IMG/VR virus record: IMGVR_UViG_3300033149_001462
Coordinates: 1-22,685 of that record
DNA length: 22,685 nucleotides
DNA from: a virus
Direction: 5' to 3' (one strand)
Every line of letters begins with the position of its first letter. The stretch's first letter is position 1. The notes below the pieces were generated by a model, which was given only the letters and a program-made list of their open reading frames with translations, had not been told where the DNA came from and did no database searches. A program made the translations under genes and the position numbers. Shown in pieces: positions 1 to 13,524 of the stretch.

Positions 1-83
1 GTTCCAAGAAGTCGGTCTGCACGCTCTCGCTGTTCGGGAGTTATTTCAAATGCAAAGCGTGGTACGTAGTTGTCATGAGACAT
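1..83 (-). CDS. Partial small phage protein (N-terminus only)
   Basis: An open frame starts at the ATG at 83-81 and runs off the left edge, giving 27 residues that begin MSHDNYVPRFAFEITPEQ. A clear ribosome binding site, GGAGG, lies 7 bases before the ATG. The start looks like short phage proteins with an F-x-F-x-I-T-x-E-Q opening followed by a basic helix (RERADRLL), but no function can be assigned from this piece. It would be the next gene after the sulfoquinovose synthase homologue in the leftward operon. Copy 1 of the 25-bp palindrome lies 15 bp upstream of its start codon. Confidence 0.75.
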   Translation of the reverse strand, partial: MSHDNYVPRFAFEITPEQRERADRLLG

Positions 84-98
84 CTTTGGACCTCCAAA

Positions 99-123
99 AG
101 ATTGTTTAATTTTTAAACGGTCT
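99..123. repeat. 25-bp palindrome, copy 1
   Basis: Half-sites AGATTGTTTA and TAAACGGTCT face each other around a 5-bp AT centre. The last base overlaps the stop codon of the gene at 123-1328, and the site ends 15 bp before the start codon of the next leftward gene at 83. Confidence 0.85.
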
Positions 124-1328
124 TACCACCTCGTGGTAGGGTCGATTACTTCCCTTCTTATGTTGTCAGCGTAAGGTATTAGGTCTTTTAATAGAGATGT
201 TATCTCACACTTTATGTTAGTTGTTGGTTTGTAACCTAGTTTCCTTAGTCCGTTATGGACAGGAACATAGTAATGTTCTTCTGCTTCCTTCCGAGGATTT
301 TTTAGGTGATTTATTTCAACCTTTAGTCCAAGGTCAGAAGCACATTCCTTTACGACGTTAGCTAGTTCGTTAATCGAACAAGTCATAGCGAATTGATTAA
401 GTGTTTGATAGGTTCCTTGCTTAGGAGGATTTTCAATAGCTAGGGTTATACAAGTTATTGAATCCTTAAGAGTTAGAAACCCACGAGTTTGACCGCCTTT
501 TCCATAAACCGTAAGAGGATGACCTATCAAGGCCTGTGCACAGAAGCGATTGATTACAGTTCCAAAGTATTGATCATAGTCAAAGCGAGTTATTTCTACG
601 TCATTGGATGTAGGCATCAGTCCAAATACAACACCTTGCATTATATCAGTTGAGCGCAATCCCCAGTTGCGACAAGCGAATTCTATGTTGTGAGTGTCGT
701 GGACCTTTGAGAGATGATACCAAGAACCTGCTGTTCGAGGGAATAGTAAGTCAGCCATTGCACAAGTTCGGGTGTCTTCCATTCTGACTATTCTTCCTGG
801 CTTTAGTTCATTTAAGCATGTATAGGGTATTCTGCCTTCAGGTATTATACAAGGAGGTGTTCCATATTCTCCCATCGTCCCTAATTTTATCAAATGAGCT
901 TCAGGACAAACCTCTTTCGTTGCCCATAAAAGATGTAATGTTCCTATTACGTTTTCTCTTTGTGTCTCTTCTGCACAATGTACATCTTTCATAGACCAAG
1001 GTGCAGAAGGTTGTTCTGCAAGATGGACGATTGTGTGAGGTTTGAATGTAGACAAGATGCTTCGCATGAATCCTGGAGTATTGATCCCTAGGTGAAGATC
1101 AACCTGGTCAGTGAAGTTTTTAAATGTTTTTAGGTACATCTTCCTTTCCCATGCAGATGTTATTGGTGTTAGAGAGTTACTACCAACTTCACGCACTCGT
1201 CTTCTGCGTGACTTGTTGTCGATTCCGAAGACAGTATAGCCACGCTTTAGAAGATGGATTGTTAAAGGATAGCCTATGTAGCCGTCGTTTCCAAGGACCA
1301 GTACTTTGTGGTCCTTCTCACTTATCAT
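123..1328 (-). CDS. UDP-sulfoquinovose synthase homologue (SQD1/SqdB-like, extended SDR)
   Basis: The protein (401 aa) belongs to the extended short-chain dehydrogenase/epimerase family and matches SQD1/SqdB along its length. That enzyme joins sulfite to UDP-glucose to make UDP-sulfoquinovose, the head-group donor of the sulfolipid SQDG. Visible landmarks are the NAD-binding G13xxG16xxG19, the active-site block KLGTMGEYGT with Thr151, the Y204-x3-K208 catalytic pair within YHLSKVHDTHN, RFDYDQYFGTVINRFC (248-263), HPLTVYGKGGQTRGF (270-284) and NPRKEAEEHYY (344-354). The family's EQRSAPYSM segment reads EQPSAPWSM, so a normally conserved Arg is Pro106. A segment before the YxxxK block, about 168-196, is longer than in plant SQD1. 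GGAGG stands 7 bases before the ATG. The start overlaps the end of the upstream gene by 11 bp. Family assignment is firm. Substrate and product are inferred, and other nucleotide-sugar epimerases are the alternative. Confidence 0.9.
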   Translation of the reverse strand: MISEKDHKVLVLGNDGYIGYPLTIHLLKRGYTVFGIDNKSRRRRVREVGSNSLTPITSAWERKMYLKTFKNFTDQVDLHLGINTPGFMRSILSTFKPHTIVHLAEQPSAPWSMKDVHCAEETQRENVIGTLHLLWATKEVCPEAHLIKLGTMGEYGTPPCIIPEGRIPYTCLNELKPGRIVRMEDTRTCAMADLLFPRTAGSWYHLSKVHDTHNIEFACRNWGLRSTDIMQGVVFGLMPTSNDVEITRFDYDQYFGTVINRFCAQALIGHPLTVYGKGGQTRGFLTLKDSITCITLAIENPPKQGTYQTLNQFAMTCSINELANVVKECASDLGLKVEINHLKNPRKEAEEHYYVPVHNGLRKLGYKPTTNIKCEITSLLKDLIPYADNIRREVIDPTTRW

Positions 1329-1506
1329 AGCAAGACCTCCTTTCTTTCGAATACAGTGTGTTATAAAGTTCGTTCAGCAATGCTCCTGCCTCTGACTCTC
1401 TTAATATTAAGGTCTCAGTGCCTACCTTTATTTCTACTTCATGATGGTCAATAATGGTTCCTTCACCTTTGTATACTGGATACCAATGGACAATTATTGA
1501 TTTCAT
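1318..1506 (-). CDS. Small hypothetical protein
   Basis: A 62-residue protein with no recognised domain. It opens with a hydrophobic strand (MKSIIVHWYPVY) and has an acidic and histidine-containing middle (DHHEVEIKV), then a helix rich in Glu and Leu. The start is supported by AAGGAGG 8 bases upstream. It is translationally coupled: its ATG overlaps the stop of the dCMP deaminase gene (ATGA-type overlap at 1503-1506), and its own end overlaps the start of the sulfoquinovose synthase homologue. A role alongside either neighbour is possible, but nothing in the sequence shows it. Confidence 0.7.
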   Translation of the reverse strand: MKSIIVHWYPVYKGEGTIIDHHEVEIKVGTETLILRESEAGALLNELYNTLYSKERRSCYDK

Positions 1507-2027
1507 AGTTCAAACCTCCTTATAACAATGTCTGAGTTTTCGGCTAATAACTCAGTGTGAGGGTCGTAGAATTTTACGTCCTCTACAACAATCTCCACAA
1601 TGCCTGCGTTGATGAGAGTGCCGAAACACTTTTGGCAAGGTATTACAGAGTTCATATATAAAGTGGTCCCGATAGTTGGGACACCAAGTCTTGCAGCATT
1701 AGAGACTGCATTTTCTTCTGCATGTTGCGCTATGCAATATTGTATACCTTCGCCACTTTTGTAACCAAGAAGTTTACGTGGACAAGTTGAGGCAATTGCC
1801 TTTGGTGGATAAATTTGAGACAGGTTAGAGAGTGTTTTGTCTTTCATGAACCTTTCGTGACCACAATGAGGGATTCCACGAGGTGGGCCGTTGTAACCAG
1901 TTGATACAATACTCTTGTTACGCACGAGAAGTGCGCCAATCTTTCTTGACAGACAAGGTGATTTCGAAGCAATGGTTTTGCAAACTTCATAGAAGTACCT
2001 ATCCCAATGTTTTGGTGCGTTCTTCAT
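1503..2027 (-). CDS. dCMP deaminase (ComEB-type)
   Basis: A 174-residue cytidine/deoxycytidylate deaminase-fold protein. It would convert dCMP to dUMP, feeding dTMP synthesis during phage replication, in the cytoplasm. The zinc site is visible: H102-A-E104 supplies one ligand and the catalytic Glu, and P130-C131-x2-C134 supplies the other two ligands. The N-terminal HWDRYFYEVCKTIA and STGYNGPPRG (42-51) are typical of dCMP deaminases rather than tRNA or CMP deaminases. Extra Cys/His residues (H54, C55, H57, C82) match the second, structural metal site seen in phage-type enzymes. The start has a GGAAAGGA site upstream. It overlaps the small gene before it by 29 bp and the gene after it by 4 bp. 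Confidence 0.93.
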   Translation of the reverse strand: MKNAPKHWDRYFYEVCKTIASKSPCLSRKIGALLVRNKSIVSTGYNGPPRGIPHCGHERFMKDKTLSNLSQIYPPKAIASTCPRKLLGYKSGEGIQYCIAQHAEENAVSNAARLGVPTIGTTLYMNSVIPCQKCFGTLINAGIVEIVVEDVKFYDPHTELLAENSDIVIRRFEL

Positions 2028-2181
2028 GACGAATCCTTTCCATTTCCTTTATTAGTAAAAGTTCTATGTCCATCAATGTAGAGTGGATTGATGCAACAAG
2101 GTCAGAAGAGGTAGTTCTTTGATCTGACTGCCTCTCGACTGCTCTTTCGAAAACCAGGTTAGCGATCTCCTTCTCGTTCAT
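1999..2181 (-). CDS. Small helical hypothetical protein
   Basis: A 60-residue, charged, probably all-helical protein (MNEKEIANLVFERAVERQ at the start, then DIELLLIKEMERIRHEERTK). It overlaps the upstream gene by 23 bp and the deaminase by 29 bp, a compact arrangement like its neighbours. Its ribosome binding site (AAGGA) is weaker than most here, so translation may depend on coupling. No family is recognised. Confidence 0.6.
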   Translation of the reverse strand: MNEKEIANLVFERAVERQSDQRTTSSDLVASIHSTLMDIELLLIKEMERIRHEERTKTLG

Positions 2182-2506
2182 ATAGGAAGTCCTTATCGTT
2201 CATGTCTACTAACAGTGCATCGAGTAGGAATGTGTAGTTCCTCAAATCAGTGATCTTTTCTCTCCACTGTTTCATAGAGTATTTCCACGGCTCTGCCGCC
2301 ATATCACAGATTGAGGTGAAGTGCTTGGTCATCATTCCTATGAGTGCAAAAGTAGGTTGAACGTTCTGTGCGAAAGCAGCTCGGTAGAATTGCTGAAGGC
2401 GATCGTCGCCAGTTTCAGGTGAATATTCTTTTGCTTTCCTTAGCAAGACCTTCTTGCTACGAAGGAAAGATTTTTCAAGTTCGATCATAAATTCTTCGTT
2501 AGTCAT
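2159..2506 (-). CDS. Conserved phage helical protein, possibly NTP-pyrophosphohydrolase/DUF1599-like
   Basis: A 115-residue protein, predicted mainly helical. The pattern K-x-E-Y-S (26-30), DDRLQQF (34-40), L-I-G-M-M-T-K-H-F-T-S-I-C-D-M (about 55-69) and WREKITDLRNYTFLLDALL (81-99) resembles small phage proteins thought to be related to nucleotide-modification or MazG-like all-alpha proteins. The conserved acidic and KH/D residues would suit metal-dependent nucleotide hydrolysis, and the next recognisable gene downstream is a dCMP deaminase. That functional link is inference. The start ATG follows GGAGGTAAAAAG. Confidence 0.65.
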   Translation of the reverse strand: MTNEEFMIELEKSFLRSKKVLLRKAKEYSPETGDDRLQQFYRAAFAQNVQPTFALIGMMTKHFTSICDMAAEPWKYSMKQWREKITDLRNYTFLLDALLVDMNDKDFLYEREGDR

Positions 2507-2530
2507 TTCTTTTTACCTCCATGTCATTAA

Positions 2531-2559
2531 CCTGCCCATCGTCACAGGGTGACGACAGG
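2531..2559 (-). other. Intergenic hairpin
   Basis: The 7-bp stem TCGTCAC/GTGACGA closes a 3-base loop and is extended by a CCTG/CAGG outer pair. It sits between palindrome copy 2 and the ribosome binding site of the gene starting at 2506. No run of T follows on either strand, so it does not look like an intrinsic terminator. It could be an mRNA processing or attenuation structure. Confidence 0.45.
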
Positions 2560-2560
2560 C

Positions 2561-2585
2561 AGACTGTTTAAATTTTAAACGGTCT
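2561..2585. repeat. 25-bp palindrome, copy 2
   Basis: Half-sites AGACTGTTTA and TAAACGGTCT, almost perfectly symmetric. The last base overlaps the stop codon of the gene at 2585-3004. The next leftward gene starts 54 bp away, with a hairpin in between. Confidence 0.87.
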
Positions 2586-3004
2586 TATCGACGAGCCACG
2601 TATTTGGAGACAGTGTTCTGATCTCCATATTCGTCGTCCTTGCGAACTCCAACGATTAGCCAGCCTTCGAGACCTACAAGGTCATCGGTCCAAGAGAAGG
2701 GCTTGGAATAGTCGATTCCGAAGGCACTTGCGAATTGCTTGAATTTGTAAATAGATCGCTGTGCCTGCTTTGGATCAAGCTTGTCACGGTCTGCGAGATC
2801 CCAGAAGAAGTCATTGAACTCGATGACCATTGGGTCATCAGGGACGTCGAAGACTGGTTGGTACCACTTTGCACCATTCTTGTCTGAGATCCCTTCTCGA
2901 ACACTAATGATGCGGGCTTTTACCTCAGTTCCACGAGGGAGAACTTTTGGTTCTGGTGCGTCGGTGATTTCTTTTTCCAGATCAGTGTAGTCGACTAAAG
3001 ACAT
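2585..3004 (-). CDS. DUF669-like candidate ssDNA-binding protein
   Basis: A 139-residue acidic protein, predicted mostly beta. It starts with an acidic tail, then PRGTEVKARIISVREG (23-38), a YQPVFDVPDD strand (48-57), a FNDFFWDL segment (63-70), a helix FKQFASAFGIDYS (88-100) and a closing VGLEGWLIVGVRKD (109-122) followed by a basic end (SKYVARR). This order of elements resembles DUF669-type phage proteins, often found beside RecA-like ATPases and nucleases and considered OB-fold ssDNA-binding proteins. The RecA-like ATPase and Cas4/RecB-like nuclease upstream fit that role. AAGGAGG precedes the ATG by 8 bases. The assignment rests on pattern and context. Confidence 0.6.
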   Translation of the reverse strand: MSLVDYTDLEKEITDAPEPKVLPRGTEVKARIISVREGISDKNGAKWYQPVFDVPDDPMVIEFNDFFWDLADRDKLDPKQAQRSIYKFKQFASAFGIDYSKPFSWTDDLVGLEGWLIVGVRKDDEYGDQNTVSKYVARR

Positions 3005-3033
3005 GGCTTTACCTCCTTTTTGGTTTAGTTAGT

Positions 3034-3294
3034 TTATATTTCAAGGCGTTCAAGTATACTACAAAGATTTACACATGCTCTTTCCAGGATACTACAATAC
3101 TCATTTATTGCTTGAGCTACAGGCACAAGATCTGGGACCCCAGAAGGAGATGACTTAGACTCTGTAAGGTCACTGCGAAGGACAGGAGCAAGTCTCTCTG
3201 TCAGTCGATCAACTAAGCCACTTACATCTCCTGCCAAGTTACTTAGTCTGTTTAGTTGTTTAGGTACTTGGCATTCCTCTGTTTCTGTATGCAT
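3034..3294 (-). CDS. Small coiled-coil hypothetical protein
   Basis: An 86-residue protein, helical with heptad-like Leu/Ile/Val spacing (QLNRLSNLAGDVSGLVDRL, then ICS/ILERL pairs near the end). An upstream in-frame GTG at 3303 lies inside the ribosome binding site, so the ATG at 3294, 8 bases after GAGGAGG, is the better start. No domain is recognised. It may oligomerise through its coils. Confidence 0.65.
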   Translation of the reverse strand: MHTETEECQVPKQLNRLSNLAGDVSGLVDRLTERLAPVLRSDLTESKSSPSGVPDLVPVAQAINEYCSILERACVNLCSILERLEI

Positions 3295-3345
3295 TTTTAA
3301 CACCTCCTCTCAGTTTTTTGTTGGTTGTTTGTTGTTAGTTGCTTG

Positions 3346-3630
3346 TTACCCTTCCTTTTGTTCATCACCTCCTTTCTTCCCTAGACGAATCATCAGAGGA
3401 TGTGCGTGTTCGTGGTATGGTTCTAGACACACAGCTATCATGCCATCAAACACTTCATGCCATCCTTTCTCCCTACAAATTCTATCGAAGGTGTCTCCTA
3501 TGCTTTCGTACTTTCCATCTTCATATGTAAGGTATCTGTCCCAGCAGATTTCGACTGTAGTATACCACTTACCAGATGGTTTGAAGATGTCTACTCTTAC
3601 ATGACTTGGATCTTCGGAATAGTGAGTCAT
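3346..3630 (-). CDS. Conserved phage hypothetical protein
   Basis: A 94-residue alpha/beta protein. RVDIFKPSGKWYTTVEICWD (12-31) looks like a two-stranded sheet, followed by an acidic helix (IGDTFDRICRE) and EPYHEHAHPLMIRLG (about 70-84). The Glu/His cluster EPYHEHAH could bind a metal, but no fold is recognised. The start has GGAGGAG 7 bases upstream. It is the first gene after the RecA-like ATPase in the leftward direction, 11 bp away. Confidence 0.7.
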   Translation of the reverse strand: MTHYSEDPSHVRVDIFKPSGKWYTTVEICWDRYLTYEDGKYESIGDTFDRICREKGWHEVFDGMIAVCLEPYHEHAHPLMIRLGKKGGDEQKEG

Positions 3631-3641
3631 CTGAGCTCCTC

Positions 3642-4466
3642 CTATTCAAACTTTAGTGGTGGTTTATCTTGCCAGTCCAAACCTGCTTTTTTCAAAAGTG
3701 CTTTGATGTCTGGTTCTTCAACTGCATTGAGTTTTCCATCGGCTTTTAGCCGAGACCGAGCGAGGTAAGTTCCCATAGAGTCAATCAGCATTTTCCTACG
3801 AGGACCTCTTGGACCTTCCTCTCCGATGAGTACGTAGATTTCGTCGAACAATAGAGGTATAGTTACAACTGCTTGGCCAGTTGTATAGAAACGGTATTTT
3901 ATGTCTTCACGGACTATGCCTGTTTTACTATCTATTGAAAGCGTCTTTTTTATTTCCCTGAGGTGGCCTGTTAAGATAAAATCACAGGGAAGGCGCATCA
4001 ACTTGCGAATGTAATTAGTCATGTGCACCTTCTGTGGATTATAGTCATGTCGATGCTGAGGTATTTCACCTGCACGGCCTTTCTGAGCAAGACCGTAGTT
4101 CATCACTGCCTCACCCCACGTAGTTGCGCTGTCAAGGCAATAGGTTCCAAAATGATTGAAGTAACCTATTTGCAAGCGTAGGTCGATAGTCTTCATCCAT
4201 TTAGCGAATTTGTCAGGTTCGAAGGGATCTTCATCTTCCCACTGAGTATCAGCGACTATGTCACCTTTTTCTATGTATTCACGAAGACACTTCGTGCCAC
4301 CAGGGTCGAAAGAGTCTATGTGCACAGGTTTGCGGGCAGTTCTTAGTAAAAAGGTCTTTCCAGCGTTAGTTTCACCTGTGATGAGCGCACTGAAGCGCTT
4401 TTGTAATGGGTCGCCTTCGTAATATTCTTTTACTTTTTTTAGTTCATTTGTATAGTCGTACGGCAT
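3642..4466 (-). CDS. RecA-like AAA ATPase (phage Sak4-type nucleotide-binding protein)
   Basis: A 274-residue P-loop ATPase. The Walker A motif is GETNAGKT (31-38), and GTYCLDSATTW (107-117) carries the Walker B aspartate after a hydrophobic strand. FILTGHL is a likely sensor strand. The length and arrangement fit phage nucleotide-binding proteins of the Sak4 group, single-strand annealing/recombination ATPases that act with a phage ssDNA-binding protein; the DUF669-like gene downstream would be that partner. The ATG at 4466 is preferred because GGAGG sits 8 bases upstream; an earlier in-frame ATG at 4484 overlaps that site. The ATPase assignment is firm; the recombination role comes from family and context. 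Confidence 0.82.
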   Translation of the reverse strand: MPYDYTNELKKVKEYYEGDPLQKRFSALITGETNAGKTFLLRTARKPVHIDSFDPGGTKCLREYIEKGDIVADTQWEDEDPFEPDKFAKWMKTIDLRLQIGYFNHFGTYCLDSATTWGEAVMNYGLAQKGRAGEIPQHRHDYNPQKVHMTNYIRKLMRLPCDFILTGHLREIKKTLSIDSKTGIVREDIKYRFYTTGQAVVTIPLLFDEIYVLIGEEGPRGPRRKMLIDSMGTYLARSRLKADGKLNAVEEPDIKALLKKAGLDWQDKPPLKFE

Positions 4467-4486
4467 TAGCTTTTCCTCCTTCATAG

Positions 4487-4681
4487 TTATTCTTCACAAT
4501 TGACGTGTCGTAGTAAGTAAACTGGTACAAACATAGTGATTGGTACATACTTTGATTCTGACAACTTTCTCAGCAACAAGTCCCGTTCCTTAGCAGACGC
4601 ATCACATACACTTTTCCAAGCTAGTGATTTGAGAACTTGTGAGTCGTTTCTTTCTCTGAAGAAATAAATTCTGTCACTCAT
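4487..4681 (-). CDS. Small hypothetical protein
   Basis: A 64-residue basic protein between the TSCPD gene and the RecA-like ATPase. It overlaps the end of the TSCPD gene by 8 bp and ends 20 bp before the ATPase start. GGAG stands 9 bases before the ATG. It has a helical basic middle (AKERDLLLRKLSESK) and a hydrophobic C-terminal strand (VPITMFVPVYLL). No domain is recognised. Confidence 0.65.
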   Translation of the reverse strand: MSDRIYFFRERNDSQVLKSLAWKSVCDASAKERDLLLRKLSESKYVPITMFVPVYLLRHVNCEE

Positions 4682-5018
4682 TACTTTTTCTCCTTTCTAA
4701 ATAGCGTTCTTTTAAAACCTTTGCCACTGCATCTGGGATAGATTTAATAACAGTGTCTTTCCAAGCAACTTGATTACCTCCATCAATGTCGATTAGTTGA
4801 TTGATAATCTCTTCGAGATCAACTTCGTGGCGAAGTGCAAGGGAAACCATCCTGCCGATGGCTTCTGCTTTTGCCATAGTTGATTTGCCACTCTTTCCGA
4901 GTGTGCAGAAGATTTCAAATGGCTTGTTGTTGTATTCTGAGATTGTCACGTAAAGGTTGCCATAACCAGTTGGGATTTTCACTGTTACAGATTCTAAAGT
5001 TTCGGGTCTACTTCTCAT
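4674..5018 (-). CDS. Stand-alone TSCPD-domain protein (ribonucleotide reductase C-terminal type)
   Basis: A 114-residue protein matching the TSCPD domain otherwise found at the C-terminus of adenosylcobalamin-dependent (class II) ribonucleotide reductase NrdJ, or as separate NrdJb-like proteins. Typical segments are PTGYGNLYVTISE (16-28), FEIFCTLGKSG (34-44), AKAEAIGRMVSLALR (49-63), VDLEEIINQL (66-75) and SIPDAVAK (93-100). The signature T-S-C-P-D reads K-S-I-P-D, so the defining Cys is Ile94. The ATG at 5018 follows the nuclease stop by one base and has GGAG 7 bases upstream; a longer frame from 5153 overlaps the nuclease gene and lacks such a site. No reductase catalytic subunit is in the window. 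It may help a host or distant phage enzyme, or have been recruited for DNA or nucleotide binding. Confidence 0.8.
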   Translation of the reverse strand: MRSRPETLESVTVKIPTGYGNLYVTISEYNNKPFEIFCTLGKSGKSTMAKAEAIGRMVSLALRHEVDLEEIINQLIDIDGGNQVAWKDTVIKSIPDAVAKVLKERYLERRKSNE

Positions 5019-5019
5019 C

Positions 5020-6006
5020 TTACCACTCCAAGTCTTTCTTGACAGAAGTTTCGATCTTAGAAGGATCCCAGAACTCGATGCGAAAGCCGAGAGGTGGCTC
5101 TTCACAATGTTGCAGAGGGTTTTGCCATGATAGACAGAAATCATGGAAAGCACAGCCGAAGTATTTAGTGCAATTGCTAGGATTCATTGGAAAGGCCATT
5201 AGTAACAAGTCGTCGTCTGAGGAATGAAATAGTCTGTCCATTTCTCTTTCGATTGAATCTAAGATGTCAACAACTGTCCATAACCACACATTCATTTGGT
5301 CAGGAGTTTTGAACGCAGGGACACGTTCGAAAGTTATGCTATAACCTTTCAGGTTCTTAGAACCTCCACGTGAATAGTAGTTAAAACAAGTTCCGCAGAA
5401 TTCTATTCCAAGGACTTGTTCGATAGGGAACATGCAATAAAGGCAATGTGTGTAAGTTCCATTTTGAATGCTTAGATGAAACTTCTCTCGCCAATACCTT
5501 GAGAGACGCTTTGTAGATTTATGGTCCCAAGAAAAGATCTTTCCATCTGATTTACGTTTCATAATGGAGTCAAGACGGTAGTGTAAAACTCGGCGATTAT
5601 CAACTGGGACCGTCCCAGAAATTTCAAGCATCTTTATGCCATCTAACACAACAACCTCGTTTTCGATCAAGTCAGAAGATCGTTCTTCTGCAAATTTCAT
5701 TAAGGCATAAAGAACTGCGGTTGGATCTTTTGGTGTATAAAGGTTGTCAGTTTCTGGAGGGAATTCTCTGCGATAATGTTCAATGAAGGCGTTGTAGGCA
5801 CCTTCTACATCACTGTAACCGTAGCGAAGTTGCCACTCCCTGGCCTTATGCCAGGATTCACCGAAGTAGGCGTCGTGGTTAGGTACGTTCATTCTCCAGC
5901 CAAGGACGTGTTCAAAGAAATATTTCCTCGGACAGTCAAGGAAGGTTTCTATTTTTGATGAATCAAGGATAGACCATTCAGGTTGTTCGACTAGTGGAAA
6001 TGACAT
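5020..6006 (-). CDS. PD-(D/E)XK nuclease with Fe-S cluster (Cas4/RecB-like)
   Basis: A 328-residue nuclease of the PD-(D/E)XK superfamily. In order: SSKIETFLDCPRKYFF (16-31) with the first cluster cysteine C25, GESWH (49-53), the R-x-D strand with D146, the catalytic D161-H-K163, the Q181-x3-Y motif, then C279, C285 and C291 as the remaining likely Fe-S ligands. This is the layout of Cas4, AddB and phage RecB-like exonucleases, which process DNA ends to give single strands for recombination. The RecA-like ATPase and DUF669-like protein close by complete a plausible recombination set. The ATG at 6006 has AAAGGAG 9 bases upstream; an in-frame start at 6120 would overlap the whole preceding gene and is less likely. 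No Cas1/Cas2 or repeats are present, so a CRISPR adaptation role is not indicated. Confidence 0.85.
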   Translation of the reverse strand: MSFPLVEQPEWSILDSSKIETFLDCPRKYFFEHVLGWRMNVPNHDAYFGESWHKAREWQLRYGYSDVEGAYNAFIEHYRREFPPETDNLYTPKDPTAVLYALMKFAEERSSDLIENEVVVLDGIKMLEISGTVPVDNRRVLHYRLDSIMKRKSDGKIFSWDHKSTKRLSRYWREKFHLSIQNGTYTHCLYCMFPIEQVLGIEFCGTCFNYYSRGGSKNLKGYSITFERVPAFKTPDQMNVWLWTVVDILDSIEREMDRLFHSSDDDLLLMAFPMNPSNCTKYFGCAFHDFCLSWQNPLQHCEEPPLGFRIEFWDPSKIETSVKKDLEW

Positions 6007-6011
6007 TTCTT

Positions 6012-6179
6012 TTACTCCTTTCGTAGCAGGTGGATGTCCAACAACTCCATTGTCAAGCGAAGAATCCGCTTGCAGAGTTCGACTATAATTGGATTTTCTG
6101 GCAAGTGAGGGTCTTTGCAATCTTGTTGTAGTTGCAAAGCGTCCTTACGCCACCTTTCCAATGTCCGTTTGGTTATCAT
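6012..6179 (-). CDS. Very small helical hypothetical protein (55 aa)
   Basis: A 55-residue frame starting at the ATG at 6179-6177 after AAAGGAGG, and ending in TAA at 6014-6012, five bases before the nuclease gene. The product (MITKRTLERWRKDALQ at its start) is basic, helical and leucine-rich toward its end. Its strong ribosome binding site and fit between neighbours make it a real gene. Function unknown. Confidence 0.7.
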   Translation of the reverse strand: MITKRTLERWRKDALQLQQDCKDPHLPENPIIVELCKRILRLTMELLDIHLLRKE

Positions 6180-6318
6180 CTCTAGACCTCCTTTCTAAAA
6201 GGTTGAAGATTAAAGTTCCGCATTTGGAACATCTGTATTTGCCAGCGCTTTTTACCTTCGTGATTTTCCAAATCTGTGGTTTGCAGATGTGGCATTCACG
6301 GAGTTTTATAAATTTCAA
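6145..6318 (-). CDS. Zinc-ribbon protein, TTG start
   Basis: A 57-residue frame beginning at a TTG at 6318-6316, preceded by TTGGAGGTC at the right distance, and ending at 6145 inside the next gene (35-bp overlap). It carries two CxxC knuckles, C9-x2-C12 (ECHICK) and C30-x2-C33 (RCSKCG), separated by a basic stretch, giving a zinc-ribbon. It is one of several tiny zinc-binding proteins of this arm and could be a nucleic-acid or protein adaptor. No specific family is recognised. Confidence 0.65.
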   Translation of the reverse strand: MKFIKLRECHICKPQIWKITKVKSAGKYRCSKCGTLIFNLLERRSRDDNQTDIGKVA

Positions 6319-6319
6319 T

Positions 6320-6622
6320 TTAGACCTCCAAGATATGATTTCGTTCTATGTAATGACCTTGTTTGAACAACAGCAGGTTCAATCGCTTATGTTTTGCAGC
6401 GAAGATTGCACAAGCGATAGAGTTCATCACGTTCAGTGAACAAGGAACAATGTAATCATCTGGTTGTGAGTCTTTCATCTTTTCACTAAAGATTCTTATC
6501 ATGTGATTAGTTGCATACCTATTCATTGAACCTTCGCTGAGAAACACTAGAGTACCGTATTTCTCTGCTGGAGAAAAATCGTGAGACGATTTGTTCACGA
6601 TGAAGACAGTAGGCATTTTCAT
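6320..6622 (-). CDS. Conserved phage hypothetical protein
   Basis: A 100-residue alpha/beta protein. It starts with a hydrophobic strand PTVFIVNKSSHDFSPAEKYG (4-23), then LVFLSEGSMNRY, a helix (HMIRIFSEKM) and a C-terminal LNVMNSIACAIFAAKH (63-78) with a NLLLFKQGHYIER closing hairpin. The profile resembles a small Rossmann-like phage protein of unknown role that I have seen conserved in unrelated phages. Its ATG overlaps the stop of the preceding gene in an ATGA arrangement, with GAAGGTG upstream. Confidence 0.7.
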   Translation of the reverse strand: MKMPTVFIVNKSSHDFSPAEKYGTLVFLSEGSMNRYATNHMIRIFSEKMKDSQPDDYIVPCSLNVMNSIACAIFAAKHKRLNLLLFKQGHYIERNHILEV

Positions 6623-6978
6623 TCACCTTCTGAATGACTCAGGTCATGTTCTGGTGTAGTGTTAGACATAGACCTTAGTTGGTCCAGCAGAGATTGTGGT
6701 GCAGTTGAGGTCGCAGGTCTGCGGTCCTTAAGTTCGTTTGTTGAGGTTTGGCCGACGCCAGGTGTTGGTTGCGGCAGATTGTTTAATTTTTGAACGAACT
6801 TATTACGACCCTCAACTTCATTGAACCTAGGAATATCAACAGGAGTTAGGTCAATCTCAGCGGGTTCATCTAAGCATTCATGGTATTCGACTATGTCGAT
6901 TATTTTTCCATAAGCAGGTAAAGCTTTCCTTTTTACGTTCAAGCGTTTTCCGCAGTTAGCACAATATACGACTTTCAT
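6619..6978 (-). CDS. Zinc-finger protein with disordered tail; carries palindrome copy 3
   Basis: A 119-residue protein. Residues 1-40 hold a zinc-knuckle pair, C6-x2-C9 (YCANCGKRL) and H33-x-C35. The rest is rich in Pro, Thr, Ser and Gln and probably disordered. The 25-bp palindrome copy 3 lies in frame here and encodes the FVQKLNNL stretch, so the DNA site and the protein must coexist. The start has GGAGG 8 bases upstream. Function unknown; a regulatory or adaptor role is possible. Confidence 0.7.
   Translation of the reverse strand: MKVVYCANCGKRLNVKRKALPAYGKIIDIVEYHECLDEPAEIDLTPVDIPRFNEVEGRNKFVQKLNNLPQPTPGVGQTSTNELKDRRPATSTAPQSLLDQLRSMSNTTPEHDLSHSEGE
6776..6800. repeat. 25-bp palindrome, copy 3 (inside a gene)
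   Basis: Half-sites AGATTGTTTA and TGAACGAACT. Unlike most copies it lies inside a reading frame (6619-6978), about 155 bp upstream of that gene's end. Confidence 0.83.
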
Positions 6979-6981
6979 TTC

Positions 6982-7173
6982 TCAGTCCTCCAATCCATAA
7001 AGAATTTTTTTCACTGGATCTACATACTTCACTGAAATTGAGTAGTCAATATCCTCTATTAATTCTATCCAAATCCCTTTGTAACCAGAAGGGACTACTG
7101 TGATTCTTGCAGTATCACTCGGGTCCCCAGATATTTCTGAGGCAGAGAATACCTTCGCAGTTATTTCTCTCAT
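6982..7173 (-). CDS. Small beta-rich hypothetical protein
   Basis: A 63-residue protein. The ATG at 7173, in an ATGA overlap with the preceding stop and with GGAG 7 bases upstream, is preferred over a longer frame that would run through the preceding gene. Alternating hydrophobic residues (ITAKVFSAS, ARITVVPSGYKGIWIELI, YSISVKYVDP) suggest a small beta-sheet protein. Function unknown. Confidence 0.6.
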   Translation of the reverse strand: MREITAKVFSASEISGDPSDTARITVVPSGYKGIWIELIEDIDYSISVKYVDPVKKILYGLED

Positions 7174-7370
7174 ATTATTTCTCCATGATTCTTTAAACAA
7201 TCTGGTGAAATACACTTTCCATTGGGATCTACTTGTATAATACCACAGCCTTCGCATATAACTACTGCGGCCTTTCCTTGTTTCCAATCTTCTTGAGATG
7301 TTATACCTTTTAAATCCCCAGAGTCTTTACCGAATAATTCTACAGAACATTGCTTGCAAAGATCGGTCAT
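7170..7370 (-). CDS. Small multi-cysteine zinc-binding phage protein
   Basis: A 66-residue protein with three cysteine pairs: C5-x2-C8, C39-x2-C42 (ICEGCG) and C53-x4-C58. The form LCxxCSxExFGKDxGDLKG followed by CEGCGxIQVDxxGxC is shared with many small phage proteins of unknown role. Six cysteines could hold one or two zinc ions. GGAGG precedes the ATG by 5 bases. It starts directly after the HIRAN gene and overlaps the next gene by 4 bp. Confidence 0.75.
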   Translation of the reverse strand: MTDLCKQCSVELFGKDSGDLKGITSQEDWKQGKAAVVICEGCGIIQVDPNGKCISPDCLKNHGEII

Positions 7371-7697
7371 TTAGTCCTCCATTTTCTTTATTACAACCTT
7401 GCACATTTCCCAAGGTTTTGCCGAGGAATTTAGTTCAGTTATTTCACACTCAAGCTCGGAGATTTCCATTAAGGCACTTATTTCCGAGCTAAACTTCGCA
7501 GGTACATAGCCGAGGAATGCAGACTTCTCGAATGTTTCGTAGATGATTTTTATAGCATTAGGGTCATAAGGGTTAGTTGGTTCTGGGACAAGTTTTAAAA
7601 TGTTACCAACTGACAGGTCATGGATTACTTTTGGTAGCTCGTGGAAGCGAGCTCCTGCGACATAAAAATCTCTGACTATGTTTTCTTTTTCAGTCAT
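7371..7697 (-). CDS. Stand-alone HIRAN-domain protein
   Basis: A 108-residue protein consisting mainly of a HIRAN domain: FYVAGARFHE (11-20), a basic strand, then LVPEPTNPYDPNAIKII (36-52) and AFLGYVPAKFSSEISALM (about 60-77). HIRAN domains recognise unusual DNA ends or stalled forks and are usually fused to helicases or nucleases. As a single domain it would act as a DNA-damage or fork-binding adaptor, probably with the nearby nuclease and ATPase. The NPYDxNAI motif makes the call reliable. Its start overlaps the preceding small gene by 8 bp, with GGAGG upstream. Confidence 0.85.
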   Translation of the reverse strand: MTEKENIVRDFYVAGARFHELPKVIHDLSVGNILKLVPEPTNPYDPNAIKIIYETFEKSAFLGYVPAKFSSEISALMEISELECEITELNSSAKPWEMCKVVIKKMED

Positions 7698-7869
7698 CTT
7701 TTACCTCCTCAATAGGAAATGTACGAGTTCTTTCATCAACTGGGACTTCGTTCTCAATTCTGATGGATAGTGCATCTTCTATACATATTAGAAGACATCT
7801 ACAACTGTCTGCCAATGCTTTTGACTGTAGTTCTAGAATGTTCAATATTTCGTCAATTCTGCTGTTCAT
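7690..7869 (-). CDS. Short helical hypothetical protein (59 aa)
   Basis: A 59-residue frame from the ATG at 7869-7867 (GGAGGTGAAAG before it) to the TGA at 7692-7690. It overlaps the ligase end by 17 bp and the HIRAN start by 8 bp. The product opens with a Leu/Ile-rich helix (IDEILNILELQSKAL) and has three cysteines in a row of hydrophobics (CRCLLIC). It resembles the small coiled-coil protein at 3034-3294 in layout, though not clearly in sequence. Function unknown. Confidence 0.72.
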   Translation of the reverse strand: MNSRIDEILNILELQSKALADSCRCLLICIEDALSIRIENEVPVDERTRTFPIEEVKDD

Positions 7870-8695
7870 CTTTCACCTCCACAAAGACAGGAAACCGAGG
7901 GACTTTCCTGTCAGTTAAATGTTGATAACCAATGACACAGGTTTTGCCAACTAATGTTTCACGTTCTTGCCACAACAAGTGGCGTTGTTCCTCAGTGAAA
8001 CCAGTTCCTACGTTGAAGATCTGGCCATCTCCACTTTCACACACGAGAGAACCAAGTGTCCCTTTTGGAACTCCGTTGATGGAGATTTCTTCGTTGTAAC
8101 TGACTATTTTGTACTCGTCGGTTTTTTTAGGTTTAAATTTCATCAGCCAAACAGAGCGCTTTCGTTCATAAGGACATTGAAAGTGCCTGACGATTATTCC
8201 TTCATAACCGTCTTTTATGAGTAGATCATAAGTTCTCATTATGTCGTCCAGGTTATAGCATATCCAGAAAGGTGAGACAAATAGGTAGCTTGATTTACTA
8301 ATTAATTTACAGAGGGTGTTCAGTCGATGTGCTTGAGGTTCTTCATTTACAACGTCGAATAGATGAAACTGGATTGACTTATAACTTGGATGTCTATTCA
8401 CTGTGCGTGAAGTTATAGAAACAATTTCCTCGAAAGACATTTCATGGTTATAAAGTTCACCATCAAGCTCTGCGTCAATCCCTAGACCATCAAGTTCTTC
8501 ATTAATGTGAGGGACAGAGTGAATTATGTTTTCTTCGCTCGAAAGCAAGAGGTAACTACCTCCTACGTTAACAGCGCGACAACGAACTCCGTCGTACTTG
8601 GGTTGGACTATATACGGAGGTTGCCATTTGGCAAGACGTTTTTCCTCGAAAGGATAACACTTCATTATGTTTTTCCAGCGTTGCCACTTACTCAT
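7853..8695 (-). CDS. ATP-dependent DNA ligase
   Basis: A 280-residue phage-type ligase that seals nicks in duplex DNA via enzyme-AMP and DNA-AMP intermediates. The nucleotidyl-transferase motifs are clear: K33-Y-D-G36 (motif I, AMP-bound lysine), DAELDGELYN (74-83, motif III), FHLFDVV (110-116, motif IIIa), EGIIVRH (motif IV) and WLMKFKPKK (motif V). A C-terminal OB fold follows with GTLGSLVCE and VGTGFTEEQR. The size is that of minimal phage ligases. The ATG at 8695, 8 bases after GGAGG, is preferred to the in-frame GTG at 8710 inside that site. It overlaps the preceding gene by 8 bp. It would join fragments during replication and recombination. Confidence 0.93.
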   Translation of the reverse strand: MSKWQRWKNIMKCYPFEEKRLAKWQPPYIVQPKYDGVRCRAVNVGGSYLLLSSEENIIHSVPHINEELDGLGIDAELDGELYNHEMSFEEIVSITSRTVNRHPSYKSIQFHLFDVVNEEPQAHRLNTLCKLISKSSYLFVSPFWICYNLDDIMRTYDLLIKDGYEGIIVRHFQCPYERKRSVWLMKFKPKKTDEYKIVSYNEEISINGVPKGTLGSLVCESGDGQIFNVGTGFTEEQRHLLWQERETLVGKTCVIGYQHLTDRKVPRFPVFVEVKDEQQN

Positions 8696-9131
8696 CACTG
8701 TCACCTCCACAATTTACTAAGTATTCATATTCAGGTTCTTCGACCTGAACAGTGCGAGTGACAGTTTTTGTCTTGCCTGTTGGAATAGCTATGATTTGGC
8801 AGCTATTGGTTGGTCGGCAGTAGATTGTTACGTAGATTGGAATTTCATTTACACGAACAGTTGTTGTGTAGACAATTTGTTCTTTATCTACTCGTTTTTC
8901 CCACTTGCATTGGAATGTTTCTGATAACCAAGGGAGGATTTTTTCCTCTAAAACTTCAGGGTCGTCGAAGTGGAGATAGGCCACAGCCATACGAGAGTAG
9001 ACTGAACAAACGGCTTCACAGTCGAGAGATTTCTCGAAGGTAGGGACTATTCTTTCTATGGCTTTTTCAACTTTTATTAACTCTTTAAGTTCCTTAGCCC
9101 TTTCCCTTATTCTTTCTTTCAACGGCTTCAT
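8688..9131 (-). CDS. Hypothetical protein with N-terminal coiled coil
   Basis: A 147-residue protein. Residues 1-35 are a charged helix (KERIRERAKELKELIKVEKA), likely coiled coil; the middle holds an acidic amphipathic region; residues 85-140 alternate hydrophobic residues (IVYTTTVRVNEIPIYVTIYC), indicating a beta sheet, and the tail is acidic. AAAGGAG precedes the ATG by 9 bases, and palindrome copy 4 lies 21 bp before the start codon. No family is recognised. Confidence 0.7.
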   Translation of the reverse strand: MKPLKERIRERAKELKELIKVEKAIERIVPTFEKSLDCEAVCSVYSRMAVAYLHFDDPEVLEEKILPWLSETFQCKWEKRVDKEQIVYTTTVRVNEIPIYVTIYCRPTNSCQIIAIPTGKTKTVTRTVQVEEPEYEYLVNCGGDSDE

Positions 9132-9152
9132 TGCTTTTTCTCCTTTTCATTG

Positions 9153-9177
9153 AGACTGTTTGAAATTTGAACGAACT
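9153..9177. repeat. 25-bp palindrome, copy 4
   Basis: Half-sites AGACTGTTTG and TGAACGAACT, between the terminator at 9222-9246 and the gene starting at 9131. Confidence 0.85.
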
Positions 9178-9221
9178 ATTCATAAATCTGAGACTCTTCA
9201 CATTTACTATTGTCTTAAAAT

Positions 9222-9246
9222 GCCCTCTGAGAGGGACCCAGAGGGC
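9222..9246 (-). terminator. Candidate intrinsic terminator of the 9261-9638 gene
   Basis: On the minus strand an 8-bp stem GCCCTCTG/CAGAGGGC closes a 9-base loop and is followed by ATTTT. It lies 15 bp after the stop codon of the gene at 9261-9638. The T tract is short, so termination is probably partial and some transcripts may read through to the ligase operon. Confidence 0.65.
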
Positions 9247-9260
9247 GGTGGGACAATAGG

Positions 9261-9638
9261 TTATTTCTGTGCTGCTCGCTTCTGCAGCTCGGCCAGGAGT
9301 TTTTTCTGGTCTTCAGGGGTAGAAGCCTGGAATTTGGCCAAGAATGCCTGGACAGGATCCATCTTTGTACCCTTGATAGCGACGCCCATTTTAGCGTCTT
9401 TCAGACGCTCTTGGATTTGTTTAGGAGATTCACCTCTGCGGAGTGCACTCCTGATGTTTGCCTGAAGGGTTACTCGCCAGTTGGCCAGGGCATTGCTGAG
9501 TACAGCATCGTCACCGTACATCTTGATAGCTTCCTCCGCAGTTTCAGGGACTTGGACCTCGATGGTTGCAGTTAGGTCGTTAGGAATGCCTTTTTCGGGG
9601 TTCTTAGGTACCTTTGCGCTTACTAATTCCTTTTTCAT
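9261..9638 (-). CDS. Conserved phage hypothetical protein
   Basis: A 125-residue basic protein alone between a strong promoter (9713-9741) and a candidate terminator (9222-9246), so probably abundant. It starts with a beta region ending in LTATIEVQVPETAEEAIKMYG (22-42). A helical region follows: NWRVTLQANIRSALRRGES (53-71), a PKQIQERL helix, then VQAFLAKFQASTPEDQKKLL. Arg and Lys residues on the helices could contact nucleic acid. The type, a short early phage protein with a strand then helices, recalls small DNA-binding proteins, but no family is assigned. GGAGGTTAGCT precedes the ATG. It and the gene at 15517-15846 share the same general build (beta N-terminus, helical C-terminus, own promoter and terminator). 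Confidence 0.75.
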   Translation of the reverse strand: MKKELVSAKVPKNPEKGIPNDLTATIEVQVPETAEEAIKMYGDDAVLSNALANWRVTLQANIRSALRRGESPKQIQERLKDAKMGVAIKGTKMDPVQAFLAKFQASTPEDQKKLLAELQKRAAQK

Positions 9639-9663
9639 AGCTAACCTCCATTAAAGCTTTTTG

Positions 9664-9694
9664 TGCGATCTTTTGATCGCAGGTGCAACGCACC
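9664..9694 (-). promoter_or_regulatory. Two leader hairpins
   Basis: Downstream of the 9713-9741 promoter the leader holds two adjacent perfect stems, GGTGC/GCACC with a 3-base loop and TGCGATC/GATCGCA with a 4-base loop. They could control translation or stability of the 9261-9638 gene. A similar GGTGC-NNN-GCACC hairpin lies at 14865-14877, and a related GATCGC stem at 13525-13543. Confidence 0.55.
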
Positions 9695-9712
9695 ATTTTG
9701 AAAACGTTAATT

Positions 9713-9741
9713 GTTATAACAGTAGCTCGTTTATTTGTCAA
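9713..9741 (-). promoter_or_regulatory. Strong sigma70-type promoter (leftward)
   Basis: On the minus strand TTGACA (9741-9736), a 17-bp spacer and TATAAC (9718-9713), preceded by TGT as an extended -10. It drives 9638 leftward and, by read-through, the ligase and recombination genes. Confidence 0.85.
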
Positions 9742-9769
9742 GGCAAAACTTTTCATTTTTTACAATCCC

Positions 9770-10171
9770 TTATTCAATCTCCAAAAGATGTAGAGCAATA
9801 TCACGGTTACCAGTAGAGATATCCAATACTCCATCTGTGTCCTCCACTATCTCTTTTGTCATGAACCGTCTTTTGCATGACCTGCAGATTCTGTAACGGT
9901 AGTAAATATCACCAGGAAAGGTCTGTAGAACCCTAGAATTTACCTCTCCGCAGTCAGGGCACTTTGGACCTCCTCTTATCCATTTAGTATCTTCTTTGTT
10001 CCTTCTAGGGAAGGAAGACTCATCCATAAAGTGAGTGAGGGCAGTTCTGCTGACAATGAGTTTGTCAGCAACTTCTTCCAAAGACATTTCTTTGACATAG
10101 TAGAGGTCTGCAATCATTGTCTTTGGATTGTCGTAGCCCATTTTCCTAGCTTTTTCATTCCAGTTGATCAT
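9770..10171 (-). CDS. HTH plus NrdR-like zinc-ribbon regulator (paralogue 1)
   Basis: A 133-residue two-domain protein. Residues about 28-50 (EMSLEEVADKLIVSRTALTHFM) form a helix-turn-helix. Residues 71-105 form a zinc ribbon C71-x2-C74 ... C96-x2-C99 followed by RRFMTKE, closely resembling the NrdR N-terminal ribbon that ends in RFTTYE. The N-terminus (W-x2-KARKMGYDNPKTM) matches the start of the 12475-12822 product, so the two are paralogues. It is likely a sequence-specific DNA-binding regulator, and the 25-bp palindrome is one candidate target. AGGAGGTAATT precedes the ATG. Unlike NrdR it lacks an ATP-cone. Confidence 0.78.
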   Translation of the reverse strand: MINWNEKARKMGYDNPKTMIADLYYVKEMSLEEVADKLIVSRTALTHFMDESSFPRRNKEDTKWIRGGPKCPDCGEVNSRVLQTFPGDIYYRYRICRSCKRRFMTKEIVEDTDGVLDISTGNRDIALHLLEIE

Positions 10172-10180
10172 AATTACCTC

Positions 10181-10276
10181 CTAAGGAAGAAGCGCTGTAC
10201 AGAGCATTAAACCAAGAAAGACACAGGCACTTCCGACGACATAACCTATGAGAAAGCCTTTGAGGAAATTAGTCAT
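10181..10276 (-). CDS. 31-residue single-pass membrane protein
   Basis: A very short frame, ATG at 10276-10274 and TAG at 10183-10181, with AAAGGAGG placed 7 bases upstream. After M-T-N-F-L-K it is almost entirely hydrophobic (GFLIGYVVGSACVFLGLML), one transmembrane helix of about 20 residues with GxxxG spacing. It starts 17 bp after the preceding gene and ends 9 bp before the HTH regulator. A role in the membrane, such as lysis timing or superinfection exclusion, is possible but unproven. Confidence 0.65.
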   Translation of the reverse strand: MTNFLKGFLIGYVVGSACVFLGLMLCTALLP

Positions 10277-10293
10277 TTCACCACCTCCTTTCG

Positions 10294-10458
10294 TTAATCT
10301 TCAAAAGTAACCTTTATTCTCTGAAGTGGTTCTTCTCCATCTGGCCTAGAAATTCGTTGAGGGATGTAGATTACAAAATCACCTGAGGGCGACTCGTAGC
10401 GGTCGCCGCCGCTTTTGCGGGCAGGTCTTTTGAGTTCCACTGTTTCGATTACTTTCAT
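10294..10458 (-). CDS. Short hypothetical protein (54 aa)
   Basis: A 54-residue frame from the ATG at 10458-10456 to TAA at 10296-10294. GGAGGTGACAAACA precedes the start, and the start overlaps the preceding stop (ATGA). It is basic at the front (LKRPARKSGGDRYESPSGDF) with a VIYIP strand and an IKVTF strand near the end. It looks like a small beta-hairpin protein. Function unknown. Confidence 0.7.
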   Translation of the reverse strand: MKVIETVELKRPARKSGGDRYESPSGDFVIYIPQRISRPDGEEPLQRIKVTFED

Positions 10459-10781
10459 TGTTTGTCACCTCCTTTCCTGAAGAGAAAGTTATGCCTAGCA
10501 ATTTTGAGTTTCCTTTGATACCAAGGCCCATGACCTAGTAAAGAGCAGAACTCATCCATTGTGAGAATAATCTTTTTGCCTAGTTTTAGACTTGCAAGGT
10601 AGATTGTTGGACCATCAGATATAATTCTTTCCAGTGCATTTTCTTCCTTCTCAATTTCTGCAGCTGTGTTCCATCCAATAGATTCTTGGACCGAGAATAC
10701 TTGCTCACCTTTTTCGTCGAAGGCTATCAAAATGCGATTTGTGAAGAGGTAGACTTCTTTGATTTTTGATTCTTCATGCAT
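10455..10781 (-). CDS. Hypothetical protein
   Basis: A 108-residue alpha/beta protein with N-terminal strands (EVYLFTNRILIAFDEKGEQV, 9-28), an acidic helix (AAEIEKEENALERII), a GPTIYLASLKLGKKIILT segment and a basic C-terminus (WYQRKLKIARHNFLFRKG). AAGGAG stands 8 bases before the ATG. No family is recognised; the basic C-terminus might bind nucleic acid. Confidence 0.68.
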   Translation of the reverse strand: MHEESKIKEVYLFTNRILIAFDEKGEQVFSVQESIGWNTAAEIEKEENALERIISDGPTIYLASLKLGKKIILTMDEFCSLLGHGPWYQRKLKIARHNFLFRKGGDKQ

Positions 10782-10799
10782 TTTCTTTCTCCTTCCGTT

Positions 10800-11120
10800 T
10801 TAAGATTGTTCTTCAAAGTCTTCTGGTCCTAACTCTACACCAAGCGCTTCGGCAATTTTGAAGACTTGGTCCTTTGTTAGTTTTATTTCCAGGTCCTTTG
10901 CCTTCTTCCTCTCACCTGGGCTAGGGAGTTTGGTCAGTCTTTCGTTTTCAGCTAATTTCCTATCTGCTTTTTCGAACCTCTTTTTCCAACGAAGATGACA
11001 TTCTTCGTAAGAATGCAAGATTCTTCGAATTGTAAGAATCGTTTCCCAAAGTTCACGACACCTTAACTTTGCCTCACAACGTTCACGTTCGAGAGTTGCT
11101 TTTTCTTCTTCTGTTAGCAT
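10800..11120 (-). CDS. Coiled-coil hypothetical protein
   Basis: A 106-residue highly charged helical protein. Residues 1-60 (EEEKATLERERCEAKLRCRE onward) have heptad spacing of Leu/Ile and probably form a coiled coil with Cys residues at regular places; residues 75-100 (DLEIKLTKDQVFKIAEALGV) look like a small acidic helical domain. AGGAGG precedes the ATG by 8 bases. Function unknown; it may be an oligomeric adaptor. Confidence 0.68.
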   Translation of the reverse strand: MLTEEEKATLERERCEAKLRCRELWETILTIRRILHSYEECHLRWKKRFEKADRKLAENERLTKLPSPGERKKAKDLEIKLTKDQVFKIAEALGVELGPEDFEEQS

Positions 11121-11138
11121 CTTGAGACCTCCTAAAGT

Positions 11139-11492
11139 TTAAATCGAGGTTCGTACCTCTTCTATTAACCTTCGTGCCTGGACAACTAGGTTGCGCAGTC
11201 TGGAATACTCAATTCGGTGAGGATCTAGAATACACTCCGCCTCGTGTGTTCTGTAGTAGTATGCCTTCAATATGCTCTGGTTAATATCATTTTTGTGTTG
11301 TAGGTCTAATTCTATATCAGCTAAGTGATTTGCAACCCTCCATGCAATAGAAGTAGCAAGATCAAGCATCTGGCGGCATTTATCATGCTGCTCTGGACAG
11401 TGGTAAATATAGTTACACTTCTGTGTATGGCAATAGCGTCGTAGGTCTTTCTCAGTGGCCTTTAGTCTTTTTCCAAGTTCTAACCTGTTCAT
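11139..11492 (-). CDS. Helical hypothetical protein with Cys/His cluster
   Basis: A 117-residue helical protein. A cluster C21, C26, C32, H36, C39 with spacing near CxxxxC...CxxxHxxC could bind zinc within an otherwise helical fold (LATSIAWRVANHLADIELDL, 45-64). The C-terminus is basic (RLRNLVVQARRLIEEVR). GGAGGAAAAGA precedes the ATG, and palindrome copy 5 lies 17 bp upstream of it. No family is recognised. Confidence 0.7.
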   Translation of the reverse strand: MNRLELGKRLKATEKDLRRYCHTQKCNYIYHCPEQHDKCRQMLDLATSIAWRVANHLADIELDLQHKNDINQSILKAYYYRTHEAECILDPHRIEYSRLRNLVVQARRLIEEVRTSI

Positions 11493-11509
11493 TCTTTTCC
11501 TCCTTTCCT

Positions 11510-11534
11510 AGATTGTTTAAATTTTGAACAATCT
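11510..11534. repeat. 25-bp palindrome, copy 5
   Basis: Half-sites AGATTGTTTA and TGAACAATCT, the most symmetric copy; the outer eight positions match perfectly. It overlaps the TAG stop of the gene at 11533-11811. Confidence 0.88.
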
Positions 11535-11811
11535 ATCTCCACACTTCCTTCCCATCCTCTAGCCGCCACCCAGTAGCAACAACGTCTTTAGGATCAATGT
11601 CAAAAGCGTTGCACACATCTAAGTGTGTACCTCTCGCAAGGCCCCAGATGGTGCCGTCAGCAGTTTTGACAACAACTTCTGCGACCTTTCCCTTGACGAT
11701 TGTCTTAGGTTTACCCTTTCGTCTTTTCCTCCAAGGATTTCCAACCAAGGGTTTTTTCCAGCCACTTGGTCTGACAACTGAGATGTGTTGGCCTAGGATT
11801 GAAATACTCAC
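11533..11811 (-). CDS. Basic beta-rich hypothetical protein, GTG start
   Basis: A 92-residue very basic protein (KKPLVGNPWRKRRKGKPKTI at 19-38). It starts at a GTG with GGAGG 10 bases upstream. The C-terminal half (KVAEVVVKTADGTIWGLARG, 42-61, then DVVATGWRLEDGKEVW) reads as a small beta barrel and could bind RNA or DNA. Function unknown. Confidence 0.65.
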   Translation of the reverse strand: MSISILGQHISVVRPSGWKKPLVGNPWRKRRKGKPKTIVKGKVAEVVVKTADGTIWGLARGTHLDVCNAFDIDPKDVVATGWRLEDGKEVWR

Positions 11812-11831
11812 TTTGCTTTTCCCTCCTTTCG

Positions 11832-12822: not shown

Positions 12823-12843
12823 AGAACCGCCTCCTTCACTCGT

Positions 12844-13056: not shown

Positions 13057-13077
13057 CTTTGTCATCCTCCTTTCGAA

Positions 13078-13491: not shown

Positions 13492-13524
13492 CACCTTTCG
13501 GCCGATTATTTTCATTTACAGTTT

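Follow-up and report, generated by a model that had tools for sequence, protein, structure and literature searches.

The gene at positions 123-1328 (minus strand) of the window, the whole stretch of 22,685 bases of viral DNA that was analysed, belongs to a phage lineage and is predicted from its sequence to encode a UDP-sulfoquinovose (UDP-SQ) synthase-like enzyme. Two features are new. The synthase gene is a discrete cassette in one phage family, gained and lost together with one glycosyltransferase (GT), and its product falls in a clade of about 40 proteins, all viral, that carries a clade-specific cysteine loop. On balance, the enzyme probably makes UDP-SQ for the phage's own GT, where the product, its use and the acceptor are all predicted. 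Most of what is known of sulfoquinovose comes from photosynthetic lipids and the S-layer glycans of archaea, and a synthase lineage confined to viruses and linked to a single transferase would bring this sugar into the surface chemistry between phage and host.

The synthase-like enzyme and its family

The gene is an unbroken open reading frame for 401 residues, exactly at the coordinates of the first-pass annotation, which gave no strand. In a profile search, its product matches NF041015 (UDP-sulfoquinovose synthase) with 456 bits (E 8.9e-137), and the next family scores 38.7 bits. Since 456 bits are short of the curated NCBI equivalog cut-off of 575, the protein is labelled synthase-like and not a confirmed member. 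Homology to SQD1, for which a structure is solved, spans residues 7-401 of the phage protein (phmmer, E 3.8e-99), and a PF01370 domain is present. The AlphaFold model is of moderate confidence (pLDDT 67, below 50 in the cysteine loop). Its best structural matches are 1i2b and 1i24 (Z 29), followed by the next epimerases at Z 23, and the identity to SQD1 is 42% over 333 structurally aligned residues. The first-pass annotation had placed the gene in the SQD1/SqdB family, and both searches, together with a position inside that family in maximum-likelihood trees, support the assignment.

The protein has the SDR fold, with the NAD+ site GxxGxxG at residues 13-19 (G13-N-D-G16-Y-I-G19). The catalytic Thr151, Tyr204 and Lys208 are found at the positions where the annotation had them, and the active-site His205 is also retained. 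Further motif residues are H102, S202 and the stretch T151-M152-G153-E154-Y155, and counterparts of His95, Met145, Glu147 and Tyr148 of Agl3 are present. Against relatives that are 84-95% identical the dN/dS is 0.08-0.10, a sign of purifying selection and therefore of a maintained gene.

Maximum-likelihood trees that include plant SQD1, the SqdB proteins of S. meliloti and Marinovum and Agl3-type archaeal proteins place the phage clade within the UDP-SQ synthase family, closer than SQD1 to the Agl3-type branch. A clear grouping with another epimerase subfamily, which would have spoken for a different enzyme, is not seen in these trees, which hold UDP-SQ synthases and no other epimerase subfamily; it is the profile scores that part the subfamilies, by about 417 bits (456 against 38.7). 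The virus-only clade that includes the window synthase has an SH-aLRT support of 100, or 96-97 with more cellular genomes. Around it in the tree stand further viral sequences, five from the phylum of L094 (Thermodesulfobacterium) and others from archaea, and the branch uniting the phage clade with archaea, Agl3-type proteins included, has a support of 98. A scan of viral contigs gave 77 synthase loci; among named phages neither the synthase nor the GT was found.

The arginine position and the cysteine loop

The motif that reads AEQRSAP in Agl3-type enzymes is E105-Q106-P107-S108-A109-P110 in the phage synthase. The loss of the arginine to proline had been recognised in the first-pass annotation, which numbered the residue Pro106; the replacement is correct and the residue is Pro107. 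In Agl3, alanine in place of the aligned arginine, likewise of His95, Met145, Tyr182 or Lys186, abolishes activity (PMC4388408).

A sample of 80 genome contigs is skewed to EQPSAP, as this motif was one of the search patterns, so the frequency of proline was taken from samples not chosen by motif. Among sequences of the L094 phylum sampled in that way, proline occurs in 29 of 30 and arginine in one. Among 30 sequences of Thermoproteota, the Agl3-like ones have arginine and four above the NCBI cut-off have proline. On a tree made without these columns the state switches at least three times, and the Agl3-type (Arg) enzymes nest among the Pro-type enzymes. As proline is spread over the relatives in this manner, it is no mark of another known subfamily. 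Pro107 as a phage-specific change was considered and rejected, since archaeal and bacterial relatives usually have proline as well, and the earlier idea of a phage oddity that alters the substrate falls on the same counts. At the level of sequence, the arginine of AEQRSAP is an unreliable family marker, since archaeal members above the NCBI cut-off have proline. The caution on the lost arginine stands: alanine there kills Agl3, so the activity of the phage enzyme is a predicted one. Whether the "essential" arginine of UDP-SQ synthases can give way to proline is a question for which this enzyme is a natural test case.

The longer loop that had been proposed near residues 168-196 is real in length, with 68 residues in segment 137-204 versus 52 in SQD1 (16 more); the segment ranges from 49 to 89 residues among the phage-clade sequences displayed. 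Three cysteines mark this loop within the phage clade, C160 (39/40), C171 (34/40) and C189 (38/40), and are nearly absent from relatives outside it (1/28, 0/28 and 0/28, respectively), whereas C141 is frequent both inside and outside. A metal site in the loop is only a possibility, because the model is unreliable there.

The cassette, its phage family and the glycosyltransferase

The synthase lies in a co-oriented replication operon on the minus strand, in agreement with the phage early operon of the first-pass annotation, the early timing being predicted. Its upstream neighbour is a dCMP deaminase (1503-2027), followed by a phrog_6802 protein (2159-2506) and a phrog_2300-like protein (2585-3004), both conserved operon members, a Sak4-like ATPase (3642-4466), a PD-(D/E)XK exonuclease (5020-6006) and an ATP-dependent DNA ligase (7853-8695). 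In the operon of the relatives, the synthase stands mostly directly after the dCMP deaminase, its usual upstream neighbour, and ahead of two small proteins; further along are a fusion of ParB with an N6/N4-methyltransferase, a family A polymerase with an N-terminal uracil-DNA glycosylase (UDG) domain, and a primase. Synthase-free genomes have the same operon minus the synthase, and in most genomes the gene has been inserted cleanly, on its own, at one region of the operon. The cassette is carried by a family of uncultured phages with genomes of about 45-50 kb. No sulfite-supplying gene was found in the window.

Several other features of these genomes were observed. In L015 (8615-11915) and L016 the synthase lies outside the replication operon, with an SU10-like major capsid gene on one side and an adaptor-like gene on the other. 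The contig L101 encodes on its plus strand the fusion of a ParB N-terminal domain with an N6/N4 DNA methyltransferase (11876-13198), conserved in the family's operon, and the family A DNA polymerase with the N-terminal UDG domain (13219-16641). This polymerase has an internal insertion of about 300 residues (about 625-929), which may be an intein and is missing from close relatives. The window encodes two paralogous small proteins on the minus strand (9770-10171 and 12475-12822), each with an HNH-type N-terminal match and an NrdR-type zinc ribbon.

Among named phages, the terminase large subunit (TerL; 21081-22610, plus strand) has its closest relative in Desulfofustis phage LS06-2018-MD01 (OP947158), with 46% identity, and this phage is the only named relative for the ParB-methyltransferase (44% identity). 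MD01 belongs to the same phage family and has the same replication operon, but is devoid of both the synthase and the GT. It has been tied to a sulfate reducer through CRISPR spacers (PMC10370329). This kinship, and the sister position of sequences of the L094 phylum, suggest Desulfobacterota-type hosts, probably sulfate-reducing bacteria. A BLAST search of window positions 1-20000 against 395 genomes of the L094 phylum, for spacers and homologues, gave weak matches only, mostly coding homologues; one 31-base match lies in L356, with no phage-like gene there. A TerL search in two phyla (385 and 388 genomes), run without a positive control, gave nothing at E 1e-40.

The covarying partner is a GT-A glycosyltransferase (PF00535) at 17566-18615 (plus strand), 16 kb from the synthase. 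PF00535 glycosyltransferases occur in 17 of the 19 synthase-bearing records, the window included, and those adjacent to the terminase form one family, with 37-93% identity to the window GT. Across 46 records, both genes are present in 20, the synthase alone in 5, the GT alone in 3 and neither in 18. The near-complete synthase-positive records have the GT in 17 of 18 cases, and in 17 of 17 when the terminase/cargo region is present in the contig; the exception, G006, lacks the terminase small subunit (TerS) and TerL. These counts rest on contigs of uncertain completeness, and two of the records without the GT, G006 and G014, also lack TerS and TerL. Among all gene families, defined automatically in 32 records, none is associated with the synthase nearly as strongly as the GT (Fisher 3.7e-5). 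This association is not created by sampling, since the GT played no part in the choice of records. On a 12-gene core tree, the synthase changes nine times independently; the GT changes in the same direction in 7.4 of these on average and never in the opposite one (sign test, p about 0.016). In a mirror-tree test, once the core genome is accounted for, the distances of synthase and GT show only a weak correlation (partial r 0.28, p 0.017). G034 and G035 are synthase-negative and keep the GT, which may therefore use another sugar or UDP-SQ of the host. The dCMP deaminase was rejected as a functional partner, as its presence is not associated with the synthase (12/18 with versus 8/14 without), and the ParB-methyltransferase is likewise independent of it (18/18 versus 14/14).

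The model of the GT has a pLDDT of 85, and its 29 best structural entries are catalytic domains of polypeptide GalNAc-transferases (ppGalNAc-Ts; Z 22-24), followed by chondroitin polymerase, RmlT, WrtF and TarP/TarS (Z 17-19). D97-S98-H99, W198-G-G and H226 are invariant in the GT family; DxH and a third histidine are the metal ligands of the GT-A catalytic domain. PF00535 is the sole domain matched in the 349 residues of the protein.

The GT stands in a cargo region bounded by a TerS-like helix-turn-helix protein (16246-16878, plus strand) on the left and TerL on the right. It adjoins a tailspike/depolymerase-like protein (18616-21018, plus strand; Phage_depo_C). In relatives, this region holds further GTs, SDR epimerases, methyltransferases and tailspike-like proteins. 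The protein at 18616-21018 starts with a stretch resembling a signal peptide (MKALTKALTFISVVLFSIISFTSPANA), which recurs in relatives and is unusual in a virion protein, and the tailspike-like protein of the relative G001 is a beta-helix. A synthase-bearing phage encodes a sulfotransferase-like protein (PF03567) immediately ahead of the GT (L269:5297-5905, plus strand), and the cargo region of L276 encodes a 959-residue B12-binding/radical SAM/GT2/rhamnosyltransferase-like fusion (4965-7841, plus strand).

Predicted use of the sugar nucleotide

In the proposed mechanism, the synthase would use NAD+ and UDP-glucose of the host to form a 4-keto-5,6-ene intermediate. Sulfite, the presumed co-substrate, would be added at C6 and UDP-SQ, the presumed product, released. 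Sulfite is an internal metabolite of Desulfobacterota-type hosts. The GT, whose gene lies in the terminase/tailspike region at a distance of 16 kb, would then most likely transfer the sulfonated sugar to an acceptor, probably a virion or host-surface protein or glycan, as the cargo genes and the predicted GT fold suggest. The two genes together are a hypothesis open to direct assay.

The first-pass annotation had offered altered host lipids, altered surface glycans or a sulfonated sugar for the phage's own use. The two latter proposals are favoured by the covarying GT and the cargo region, with the sulfonated product still a prediction. As synthase and GT are gained and lost together, the sugar most likely goes to a surface or virion component and not to host lipids. 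The lipid proposal finds no backing: no transferase of the sulfolipid type was found, and the GT-A enzyme that covaries has a ppGalNAc-T-like model and lies in a glycan-type cargo region. Supply of UDP-SQ to sulfoquinovosyl diacylglycerol synthesis is the classical role of SqdB/SQD1, and the S. meliloti and Marinovum homologues adjoin a transferase gene as in sulfolipid operons; the phage protein is, however, far from the SqdB/SQD1 branch and its GT sits amid tailspike and glycan genes, which makes sulfolipid remodelling very improbable. A placement of the sugar on phage DNA has a slighter probability still. The operon position beside the dCMP deaminase and the ParB-methyltransferase would fit such a hypermodification, but neither gene covaries with the synthase, the proteins searched included none recognised as base-hydroxymethylating, and the L015 lineage has its synthase in a capsid operon.

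An unlikely, though not negligible, explanation is that the Pro-type enzyme has lost the sulfite addition and produces a different UDP-sugar (for example a UDP-4-keto/5,6-ene or another C6-modified glucose) for the same GT. The inactivation of Agl3 by alanine at the aligned arginine, the score under the equivalog cut-off (456 < 575) and the phage-only cysteine loop next to an active-site segment are in its favour. On the other hand, the remaining catalytic residues tested in Agl3 are kept, the Arg enzymes of the Agl3 type arise within Pro types with at least three state changes, archaeal Pro-type proteins exceed the NCBI UDP-SQ synthase cut-off, and a loss by alanine in one enzyme says nothing on proline in another. 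A role as a loose auxiliary metabolic gene, which would raise the output of a sulfonated glycan that the host already makes and would have no dedicated phage transferase, is improbable. Close homologues in 32 of the 395 sampled genomes of the L094 phylum (about 8%), five of them among the closest cellular relatives, agree with that role, but the presence of the gene is correlated with one phage GT over independent changes. The preferred reading, UDP-SQ for the phage's own GT, can be extended to a family that attaches sulfoquinovose by O-glycosylation to proteins of its own or of the host surface through a private synthase and a ppGalNAc-T-like GT, with the cysteine loop as a metal site or sulfite-delivery device replacing the arginine; in this full form it is improbable.

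Agl3 of the Sulfolobus acidocaldarius S-layer N-glycan pathway is the nearest verified branch type in the tree. It shares with the phage enzyme the SDR family, the Thr/Tyr/Lys triad, the equivalents of His95, Met145, Glu147 and Tyr148 and a glycoconjugate rather than a photosynthetic-lipid role, the latter predicted for the phage. The phage enzyme differs in its 38-45% identity to Agl3-type Arg sequences, Pro107, the longer cysteine loop, its phage-borne gene and a different transferase. SQD1/SqdB of the plant and alphaproteobacterial sulfolipid pathway belong to the same family but to a more distant branch; the phage enzyme has proline for arginine and the C160/C171/C189 loop, and no sulfolipid partner was found for it. 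The GT resembles the ppGalNAc-Ts (GT27) in its predicted GT-A domain, the DxH-type motif (D97/H99, with H226) and the WGG motif, whereas it is only 16-19% identical to them and matches no lectin domain, the C-terminal ricin-type lectin being a GT27 feature. The predicted GT-A domain is also shared with bacterial GT2 enzymes such as chondroitin polymerase and TarP/TarS.

As to earlier virus-encoded enzymes, a roseophage paper was set aside as prior art, as sulfoquinovose appears just in its reference list. An earlier report (PMC7785012) concerns a Mu-like virus of the Cariaco Basin that encodes a putative UDP-SQ synthase, and the accessible part of that source describes no partner gene, clade or distribution. 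The present phage family is a different one, in which the operon position of the gene is conserved and a GT covaries with it.
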